NCBI GenBank assembly: GCA_023134675.1 | Contig: JAGLUQ010000009.1 | Span: forward strand, 1-13,884 | DNA: 13,884 nucleotides | Reading direction: 5' to 3' | DNA from: Candidatus Aenigmatarchaeota archaeon | Lineage (GTDB): Archaea > EX4484-52 > GLR71 | Shown: in pieces, positions 4,895 to 5,943 of the stretch | Layout: each line of letters begins with the position of its first letter | Position numbering within the stretch: position 1 is the first letter of the stretch | Program-made: the position numbers and the translations under genes | Notes under the pieces: model-generated | Databases searched by the model: none | Told to the model about the DNA's origin: nothing | What the model saw: only the letters and a program-made list of their open reading frames with translations

Positions 4895-5716
4895 ATGAAT
4901 CTTAAAGAAGCTCTTGAAGGAAAAATCCCCCAAAAAGATGCGGAACACATCTACCGCGCTTTTGAGATAATAGGCGACATAGCCATAATCCAGGTACCAA
5001 AAGAGATAGAGCAGCATAAGATGCTCATGGCCGAGACCCTGTGCACTCTTCACAAGAATATAAAAGTAGTCATAAGAAAGATAGACGAGGTTTCAGGAAA
5101 ATACAGGGTAGGAAAATACGAGATTCTGATAGGCGAAAGGACAGACACTATCTATAAAGAAAATGGCATACGCCTGAAAGCAGACCCGACAAAGGCATAT
5201 TTCTCATCCCGGATGAGCACTGAAAGGGAAAGGATGACAGAGCAGGTAAAAGATGGAGAAAAAATAATCTGTATGTTTGCAGGCATCGGCCCGTATCCTA
5301 TAAATATAGCAAAAAAAAGGGATGTCAGCATAAAGGCAGTAGAGATAAATCCTGAAGCCACAAAGCTTTTTGCTGAGAGCCTGAAGTTAAACAAGCTTAA
5401 AGGTAATATTGAGATATTCACAGGCGATGTAAAAGACATAGTGCCTAACCTCCCCGAAAACTTCGACCGCATCCTCATGCCTGCCCCGAAAGACGCCCCC
5501 GAGTTCCTTGAGATAGCTCTGCAAAAAGTTAAAAAAGGCGGCATCATAAATTATTATGCTTTCGTCCCGTCAGAATATTTCGCAGACCTGGAATCTGATG
5601 TCAAAAACAAGTGCGAAAAATTAGGCAAAAAAGTAAAGATTCTCGCAAAAAGAAACTGCGGCAATATCGGCATCTGCCAGTTCCGTGCAGCAGTAGATAT
5701 ACAAGTCCTTGACTGA
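4895..5716 (+). CDS. trm5: tRNA (guanine37-N1)-methyltransferase, Trm5 family, lacking D1
   Basis: Trm5 uses SAM to form m1G37 next to the anticodon, which prevents +1 frameshifting and is also the first step to wyosine in tRNA-Phe. The 273-residue protein contains the D2 domain (about 20-98, including FEIIGDIAII and RVGKYE) and the Rossmann catalytic domain. Visible motifs are AYFSSRMSTER at 101-111, the SAM loop MFAGIGPYPI at 127-136, E150 in AVEINP, D178 in GDVKD, and MPAPKDAPEF at 195-204. The YFSxR...TER form favours Trm5 over the related wybutosine enzyme Taw2, which I recall as having a different residue pair there. Full-length archaeal Trm5b is about 330-340 residues; here only about 20 residues precede D2, so the N-terminal D1 domain appears absent. 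tRNA-Pro(GGG), a Trm5-type substrate, begins 7 nt after the stop codon. Confidence 0.9.
   Translation: MNLKEALEGKIPQKDAEHIYRAFEIIGDIAIIQVPKEIEQHKMLMAETLCTLHKNIKVVIRKIDEVSGKYRVGKYEILIGERTDTIYKENGIRLKADPTKAYFSSRMSTERERMTEQVKDGEKIICMFAGIGPYPINIAKKRDVSIKAVEINPEATKLFAESLKLNKLKGNIEIFTGDVKDIVPNLPENFDRILMPAPKDAPEFLEIALQKVKKGGIINYYAFVPSEYFADLESDVKNKCEKLGKKVKILAKRNCGNIGICQFRAAVDIQVLD
5694..5702 (+). promoter_or_regulatory. Possible TATA box for tRNA-Pro
   Basis: TAGATATAC within the end of trm5 is centred about 26 nt before the first tRNA base (5724). It could start the tRNA separately, or the tRNA could be processed from a trm5 transcript. It overlaps coding sequence and is a weak match. Confidence 0.3.
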
Positions 5717-5723
5717 TATTTAT

Positions 5724-5828
5724 GGGGCCTTAGGGTAGCTTGGTCATCCTTGGGGGCTGGGGGTCCTCAGACCTGCGTTCAAATAAGGTTAAGAGCTGTC
5801 TTTTCCTCTGAAAGTCGCAGGGGCCCCA
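5724..5828 (+). tRNA. tRNA-Pro(GGG) with a T-loop intron
   Basis: Folding by eye gives a complete tRNA once 31 nt are removed. The acceptor stem is 5724-5730 with 5821-5827 (GGGGCCT/GGGCCCC, one G-U pair), with discriminator A at 5828 and no encoded CCA. T8 A9 are followed by the D arm (GGGT at 5732-5736 region, loop with G18G19, TCCT). The anticodon stem is 5752-5756 with 5764-5768 and contains G-U pairs. The loop CTGGGGG at 5757-5763 gives anticodon GGG at 5759-5761 and G37. A 4-nt variable loop follows. The T stem is CTGCG (5773-5777) with CGCAG (5816-5820), and the T loop is TTCAAA plus T after splicing. The D arm sequence AGCTTGG with TCCTT is typical of archaeal tRNA-Pro. Trm5, which methylates G37 of such tRNAs, is encoded 7 nt upstream. 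Confidence 0.93.
5784..5814 (+). other. tRNA intron at position 59/60 with bulge-helix-bulge
   Basis: The intron is 31 nt. The T stem (CTGCG/CGCAG) is the outer helix. TTCA (5778-5781) pairs with TGAA (5809-5812) as the 4-bp central helix. The two 3-nt bulges are AAT (5782-5784) and AGT (5813-5815), cut after their second bases. Inside, AGG pairs with CCT and AAGAG with CTTTT, closed by a CTGT loop, leaving two unpaired T's and one A-C mismatch. This is the canonical hBHBh' substrate of the archaeal splicing endonuclease, but at a noncanonical site rather than 37/38. Ligation restores a normal 7-nt T loop. Confidence 0.9.
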
Positions 5829-5847
5829 TTTTTCTGTTCTTATCTTA
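5829..5847 (+). terminator. Possible T-rich terminator after tRNA-Pro
   Basis: A run of five T's directly follows the discriminator base and is followed by further T-rich sequence. Archaeal termination often uses such runs without a hairpin. The rest of 5848-5943 contains no gene that I can see. Confidence 0.4.
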
Positions 5848-5943
5848 AAAAATCAGCAATCCTGCCTGATTTATACAGGTATGTTATGTTCTTGATGATT
5901 TTGCAACAAAACCGAATTAAGTTATTGCACTGTACAAGTAATC

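Follow-up and report, generated by a model that had tools for sequence, protein, structure and literature searches.

Position 59/60, in the T-loop, is among the listed non-canonical sites of archaeal tRNA introns, and non-canonical introns are reported to be rich in Crenarchaeota and Nanoarchaeota, according to the cited part of PMC4090602. In Thermoproteales, introns have been transposed between tRNAs, a finding attributed to Fujishima 2010 in the relevant passages of PMC4033280 and PMC4090602. The alpha4 form of the splicing endonuclease EndA is described as narrow in its specificity, and only the (alpha beta)2 and epsilon2 forms as efficient on relaxed motifs, in the sections cited of PMC6379350 and PMC12397907. 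The tRNAscan-SE 2.0 program, as outlined in the cited portion of PMC8450103, seeks non-canonical introns with crenarchaeal/euryarchaeal and thaumarchaeal models.

The window analyzed here, 13,884 nucleotides of a Candidatus Aenigmatarchaeota archaeon (contig C208, one of the 218 contigs of an 85%-complete, 1.12-Mb genome), contains at positions 5724-5828 a tRNA-Pro(GGG) gene with an intron of this kind. As far as the cited passages describe the known 59/60 introns with a bulge-helix-bulge (BHB) motif, the position, the 4-bp centre with 3-nt bulges and the expected removal by EndA are the same here; the differences are that the host belongs to another DPANN lineage, outside the Crenarchaeota and Nanoarchaeota described there as rich in such introns, and that many of its tRNAs are interrupted in the T-loop. 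The likeness to the Thermoproteales, within the same limits of the sources, consists in similar introns in different isoacceptors and an apparently recent spread, whereas the lineage is another one, the intron is a structured ~102-nt sequence confined to one genus, and copies are also found beside tRNAs and in open frames. Taken alone, the 59/60 gene is of an established type and ordinary; an intron population centred on the T-loop and driven by a family is, as far as the literature searched goes, new in the form seen in this lineage. Among open-licence PMC texts, judged by title and abstract, the search found nothing on tRNA introns of Nanohaloarchaea or on a DPANN splicing endonuclease like the one described here, and nothing on the subject among the papers on palindromic elements.

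The interrupted tRNA-Pro(GGG) gene

The letters of the gene are those of a tRNA with a 31-nt interruption of the T-loop (Table 1). The acceptor stem (5724-5730/5821-5827) is paired in 7/7 positions, with one T-G pair, and the T stem (5773-5777/5816-5820) in 5/5; the D stem contains one mismatch and one G-U pair and the anticodon stem two G-U pairs (ARAGORN drawing), and the discriminator position is A73 (5828). With the interruption removed, ARAGORN types the joined exons as tRNA-Pro(ggg) of 74 nt, so that the initial annotation, made from the letters of the window, was right to derive a cloverleaf from the removal of these nucleotides, and its placement of a single intron at 59/60 is corroborated by the sequence and by the insert at the same site in orthologues. 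As a control, single blocks of 20-44 nt were deleted along the gene and the 1759 resulting variants, the one without the intron included, were submitted to ARAGORN: 63 yielded a tRNA call and, among the matches listed (40 of the 63), the deletions start at 5778-5785 and all give tRNA-Pro(GGG). The unspliced gene yields no tRNA in the window by ARAGORN, and Rfam finds no family in the window or, with E relaxed to 10, in the interval 5650-5900; the prediction that standard annotation would miss the gene holds for these two tools.

Table 1. Features of the tRNA-Pro(GGG) locus and of three hairpin-2 loci
Feature	Position	Strand	Evidence or remark
Trm5/Taw22-like tRNA G37 methyltransferase gene	4895..5716	+	PF02475, E 2.6e-44; ends 7 nt before tRNA
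5' exon of tRNA-Pro(GGG), positions 1-59: acceptor 5', D arm, anticodon arm with GGG, T stem 5', T54-A59	5724..5783	+	sequence; spliced product typed by ARAGORN
T54-A57 (TTCA), 5' strand of central BHB helix	5778..5781	+	pairs with 5809-5812
5' bulge AA|T with inferred 5' cut	5782..5784	+	sequence; position from BHB rule
31-nt T-loop intron at 59/60, boundary one-T ambiguous	5784..5814	+	sequence; insert in 8/10 orthologous Pro genes
Intron 3' end TGAA, 3' strand of central BHB helix	5809..5812	+	TGGA in G003, pairing kept
3' bulge AG|T with inferred 3' cut	5813..5815	+	sequence; position from BHB rule
3' exon, T60 to A73 (T stem 3', acceptor 3')	5815..5828	+	sequence; ARAGORN; orthologues
Hairpin-2 between tRNA and duplicate 3' end	L110 (G001:C39), L227 (G001:C11), L228 (G001:C7)		Val, Glu-TTC, Ile-TAT

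The exon-intron junctions can form a BHB motif in which the 5' exon and the 3' end of the intron contribute a 4-bp central helix (TTCA/TGAA), flanked by the 3-nt bulges AAT and AGT, and the exon-side helix is the 5-bp T stem. The motif had been called a textbook one, a description that does not extend to the intron-side helix, which opens with an A-C mismatch, followed by AGG/CCU. The cuts would fall at 5783|5784 and 5814|5815; because a T occupies both 5784 and 5815, the junction is ambiguous by one base and the product is identical. The minimum-energy fold of the precursor (RNAfold; z -1.72, with 12/200 shuffles of equal or better energy) leaves TTCA/TGAA unpaired; the case for the BHB is therefore comparative and not energetic.

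A second tRNA-Pro(GGG), the presence of which the initial annotation had proposed to check, is not found among the 15 RF00005 matches and the 23 matches to R1 (a model of tRNA positions 8-58, built from 12 tRNAs) in the window's own genome; this absence is weak, because the genome is incomplete and the gene in the window is itself not among the R1 matches.

Orthologous genes and their genomic context

A G37 methyltransferase gene stands directly before the gene for a tRNA with G37 (4895-5828). Its product has its best NCBIfam matches in Taw22 and Trm5b, both under the cut-offs, and the gene is found in 28 of the 34 genomes analyzed for the order. It also neighbours tRNA-Pro in several relatives, including the intron-free G007, where an insert-free tRNA-Pro gene directly follows it; in G004, the contig ends within the methyltransferase gene. 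The closest named records are from 'archaeon GLR71' (93% identity) and from 'Nanohaloarchaea archaeon' CSMAG_1717 (80%) and GLR72 (78%), and the proteins of genomes G001 and G003 are 93% and 80% identical to that of the window. The relatives of the host EndA are recorded as Aenigmarchaeota (88%), archaeon, DPANN group archaeon and Nanohaloarchaea; given these mixed names, the lineage is DPANN, its name being unsettled. The association of 59/60 introns with Thermoproteales, on which the gene was originally interpreted, does not apply to this host, which lies outside that group, the nearest named records being archaeon GLR71, Nanohaloarchaea and Aenigmarchaeota.

The tRNA-Pro gene was read in ten genomes, the window's own (G000) included. 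The T-loop insert is of 31 nt in G000, G001 and G003, 161-168 nt in G002, G005 and G006, and 38-39 nt in G027 and G033, and there is none in G007 and G008. Twelve pairs followed through the ten genes show a single break, at 50-64 in G007 (C-A), and the pairs 4-69 (GC, GU or AU) and 52-62 (CG, UA or AU), which are split by the intron site, change together. The compensatory change across the intron site, along with the two intron-free orthologues, amounts to a signal beyond chance. The tRNA-Pro genes of G002, G003, G005, G006, G027 and G033 also contain a D-loop insert.

The T-loop as an intron site in three genomes

The intron sites were surveyed in G000, G001 and G002, where R1 has 23, 30 and 36 matches, respectively. 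RF00005 added Leu-TAG in G000 (typed by ARAGORN) and Gln-TTG, Thr-GGT and Trp in G002, and tRNA-Pro(GGG), which is not among the R1 matches in any of the three genomes, was added by hand. A script sought the nearest 3' half that re-forms the T stem and the acceptor; seven T-loop genes were assigned by string match and Ile-TAT of G001 by visual inspection. The census is incomplete, as model R2 (see below) revealed, by eye, copies in Tyr and Gln-TTG of G001 that are absent from the R1 list; within it, a T-loop intron interrupts 31 of the 90 tRNA genes that could be classified, so that the gene in the window, presented at first as a rarity, represents a common intron site of the genus. These introns are present in 6 of the 22 classifiable genes of G000 (Pro-GGG, Gly-CCC, Gln-TTG, Lys-CTT, Arg-TCT and Met; two more run off contigs), 14 of the 29 in G001 (leaving out an unclear gene and a duplicate fragment) and 11 of the 39 found in G002. 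In G002, no His, Asp or elongator-Met gene (the last typed by reading) was found other than those interrupted in this manner; since these tRNAs are hard to do without, this supports working, spliced genes. The Rfam tRNA model accepts tRNA-Met in loci L101 and L102 (42.1 bits, cut-off 29), where its alignment leaves two stretches unaligned, of 35 nt (T-loop) and 56 nt (anticodon loop), read as two introns.

Of the 31 T-loop introns, 24 pair fully with T54-57 next to a 3-nt bulge, against an expectation of 0.61 when other places in the introns are tested, six pair three of the four bases, and one is looser. Fewer than four central pairs are thus formed by 7 of the 31 introns examined; the central helix and the bulges of the intron in the window do not call for the endonuclease of relaxed specificity that had been thought necessary for it. 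The T54-57 sequence is mostly TTCA, with TTCG or TCCG in some tRNAs, and the intron ends follow it in part: TGAA, TGGA with TCCG, and AGAA with TTCG (three pairs). Because T54-57 is nearly invariant, an intron ending in TGAA would be portable to nearly any tRNA T-loop, and we infer that this portability drives the spread of the introns. D-loop inserts occur in Arg-TCG, Arg-TCT and Pro tRNAs (L147, L150, L011, L030, L038); those of the Arg genes finish in CCAAAA opposite a conserved TTTGG and perhaps are portable in the same way, at G18G19. One contig of G000 ends in the T-loop of tRNA-Arg(CCT) (L145, G000:C34:3460-3510), as expected if repeated introns break assemblies. The annotation of tRNAs is affected: in G002, 29 places score above the cut-off of the Rfam tRNA model, compared with the 39 tRNA genes found.

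A family of ~102-nt introns

A query of 164 nt from the long Pro intron retrieved copies in Lys-CTT, Ser-GGA and Leu-TAA of the genus. The alignment of eleven ~102-nt copies from G000, G001 and G002 (mean column identity 74%) has a consensus of 22 pairs, 11 of which show two-sided change. The fraction of paired cells is 97.5%, compared with 86.2% in shuffles (0/500), and the covariation is 0.514, compared with 0.271 in shuffles (0/500) and at most 0.14 for slid pairings, with the caveat that related sequences can exceed such shuffles without structure. The model of the family, R2, has 56 matches at E up to 0.01, which are found in 7/7 genomes of the genus and 0/27 others (the 34 genomes being the whole phylum sample). 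Of these matches, all of which were inspected, 31 lie in the T-loop by the script and six more are T-loop-like by eye (G001:C18, G004:C1, G001:C59:12315, G005:C47:7030, G001:C6 and G000:C35:12386). When the 3' flanks are exchanged, 42/273 T-loop frames result, a weak control that says little because the R2 matches share tRNA types.

At least 11 isoacceptors carry the family intron in the T-loop: nine hosts were typed by the script (Ser-GGA, Glu-TTC, Gly-TCC, Gly-CCC, Lys-CTT, Lys-TTT, Leu-TAA, His-GTG and Arg-TCG), and Pro-GGG was recognized from the reading of the orthologues and Arg-TCT by reading. Eight family introns of G001 (in Lys, Gly-TCC, Glu-TTC, Ser, Leu, His, Arg-TCT and Arg-TCG) are alike far beyond the BHB ends, and those of Gly-TCC, Glu-TTC, Arg-TCT and Arg-TCG are absent in G002. 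The closely similar introns in several isoacceptors, combined with intron-free orthologues, identify the ~102-nt sequences as a transposed tRNA intron family. The 161-168-nt Pro inserts belong to it; the 44-45-nt introns of Gly-CCC and Arg-TCT in G000 resemble the family minus the upper hairpin; and the 31-nt intron of the window has no match to R2. No Rfam match to the long Pro intron exists at E up to 10, and readings of it as a small ribozyme or as a guide RNA of the H/ACA or C/D type were set aside on visual inspection only. A link to IS200/IS605 was likewise dropped, no transposase being seen by eye among the ORFs of >=120 codons in L113-L118.

The remaining 19 R2 matches include four directly after a tRNA gene (Lys-TTT, two Ala-GGC and an Arg-TCG that carries an interruption of its own), two shortly behind Tyr and Ser genes, nine elsewhere (eight in G004 and one in G001) and four weak ones that look like other hairpins (G000:C183, C35:6407 and C214; G001:C68). 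In G004, four copies are located within three continuous open frames (L268, L269 and L270, with two in L269), where they lie on the opposite strand and correspond to Lys/Ala-rich stretches; these open frames are only putatively genes, and one of them, considered for a time to encode an FKBP, matches 0 Pfam families, so that this reading was abandoned. Rickettsia palindromic elements are short palindromic repeats found within RNA genes and, read in frame, within protein-coding genes. The repeats described here are similar in being short, palindromic and present both in RNA genes and in open frames, a likeness that need not mean kinship, and differ in that the tRNA copies occupy sites from which BHB splicing could excise them.

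A second short repeat, hairpin-2 (about CACCYGAGCGNAAGCGARYGGTG), occurs at L101 532-574, at L102 563-605 and in the next copy there, and in L103, L104, L105, L107, L108, L109 and L110. Copies precede tRNA-Met and tRNA-Ser, follow tRNA-Val, stand away from tRNAs and are also located within the long Pro and Lys introns. At three loci of G001 (Table 1), hairpin-2 separates a complete or spliceable tRNA from a second copy of its 3' end, an arrangement like that of small integrated elements.

Splicing enzymes

A single PF01974 (EndA) match is present in 27 of the 34 genomes, none in 7, and two in none; RtcB is present in 3/3 genomes searched. The EndA gene of the host (L009:1240-1806, 189 aa), which in G000 comes after tRNA-Asn and after what was read as tRNA-Phe with an intron at 37/38, answers the question of endonuclease type that had been raised: one gene was detected, of alpha4-like layout, without an evident CSL or ASL. 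A single subunit gene of ~180-190 aa with no second subunit detected corresponds to alpha4, a divergent beta subunit being possible. The protein shares with the alpha4 EndA of Methanocaldococcus jannaschii (1A79) the single ~190-aa subunit, the active-site Tyr and His (Tyr118 and His135) and an acidic C-terminal stretch, located where L10 is expected. It differs in having Ala aligned to the catalytic Lys156 (numbering reckoned from the 179-residue length), and in occurring in a genome with many introns outside 37/38. It differs further in ~7 residues inserted between Tyr and His, an insertion present in 3IEY (N. equitans), largely present in 4FZ2 (ARMAN-2) and absent from 1A79, 1R0V and 2CV8. 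Of the catalytic Tyr/His/Lys set of alpha4-type EndA, Tyr and His are thus kept and Lys is missing from its column; hence the enzyme is termed only 'alpha4-like'. Among 13 clade homologues, some of them named Aenigmarchaeota or Nanohaloarchaea, the Lys156 column holds 12 Ala and 1 Ser; the next residue is Lys in 5/13, the host included, so that a one-residue shift of the alignment is possible. Another Lys, two residues after the active-site His, is invariant in the clade.

Compared with 1A79, the EndA loop is 4 residues longer; compared with the crenarchaeal 2cv8 and with 4fz2, it is 7 and 3 residues shorter, respectively. The broad-specificity CSL or ASL (a long loop with a conserved Lys near the active site) is not seen in the host enzyme; equating the conserved lysine of an FGK motif with the CSL/ASL lysine was considered and dropped after profile alignment. 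Given the Ala or Ser in the Lys156 column, activity of EndA in the host clade is an assumption.

Origin of the T-loop introns

The sequence, the possible pairing, the comparative signal and the presence of EndA and RtcB genes make it highly probable that the window encodes a working tRNA-Pro(GGG), with a 31-nt intron at 59/60 that is removed by BHB splicing (EndA, RtcB) and belongs to a genus-wide population of T-loop introns. In the transcript, the BHB would form when T54-A57 pairs with the TGAA end of the intron; the one detected alpha4-like EndA would then cut both bulges, RtcB would join the exons, and the T-loop and the elbow would form only after the joining. With a TGAA end that could be spliced from almost any T-loop, this loop would be a natural landing site for intron copies. 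That the gene is instead a decaying pseudogene, its T-loop broken by an insertion and its proline codons read by another tRNA-Pro, appears highly improbable: a Pro(TGG) gene of G002 could read some proline codons and the gene in the window escapes R1, but pairing on both sides of the intron is kept by compensatory change in six genomes of the genus, each with an insert at the same site, and the G002 census turned up His, Asp and elongator-Met only as genes interrupted likewise.

As to where the introns come from, we tentatively consider them one habitat of a small, mobile, structured element that could be spliced out by the host and so may spread through essential tRNA genes at little cost; this is a substantial possibility, somewhat short of being probable. 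Only slightly more doubtful is a vertical origin of the intron in the window, as a plain non-canonical intron unrelated to the copied family, which agrees with its lack of an R2 match and with the 31-nt intron of G003, whose similar 3' half suggests an old short intron at the Pro gene; against it, the same site holds family members of 161-168 nt in G002, G005 and G006 and, for the population as a whole, eight introns of G001 fall into one ~102-nt family, with four of these genes intron-free in G002. It is rather unlikely that the T-loop introns derive from elements that integrate at tRNA 3' ends and were captured by loss of the first copy of the duplicated 3' half. Hairpin-2 lies between a tRNA and a duplicate 3' end at the Val, Glu-TTC and Ile-TAT loci of G001, family copies directly follow several tRNA genes (Lys-TTT, two Ala-GGC and the interrupted Arg-TCG), and a mobile element has been proposed for intron gain in tRNA-Thr of Caldiarchaeum, in the cited part of PMC3293823; yet the duplicated 3' ends belong to hairpin-2 elements and not to the ~102-nt family, and neither an integrase nor an intermediate was identified.

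The coexistence of many T-loop introns with one alpha4-like EndA gene contrasts with the reviews which, in the passages cited above, tie relaxed motifs to two-subunit or ARMAN-type enzymes. For the gathering of introns in the T-loop, a testable reason can be proposed, namely, that their pairing partner is an exon stretch nearly identical in all tRNAs. If the tentative reading of a host-spliced mobile element is true, the copies that follow tRNA genes and those within open frames for lysine-rich protein segments would be further habitats of this element, and the host would manage with one EndA gene, as far as detected, in which the catalytic lysine is missing from its customary position.
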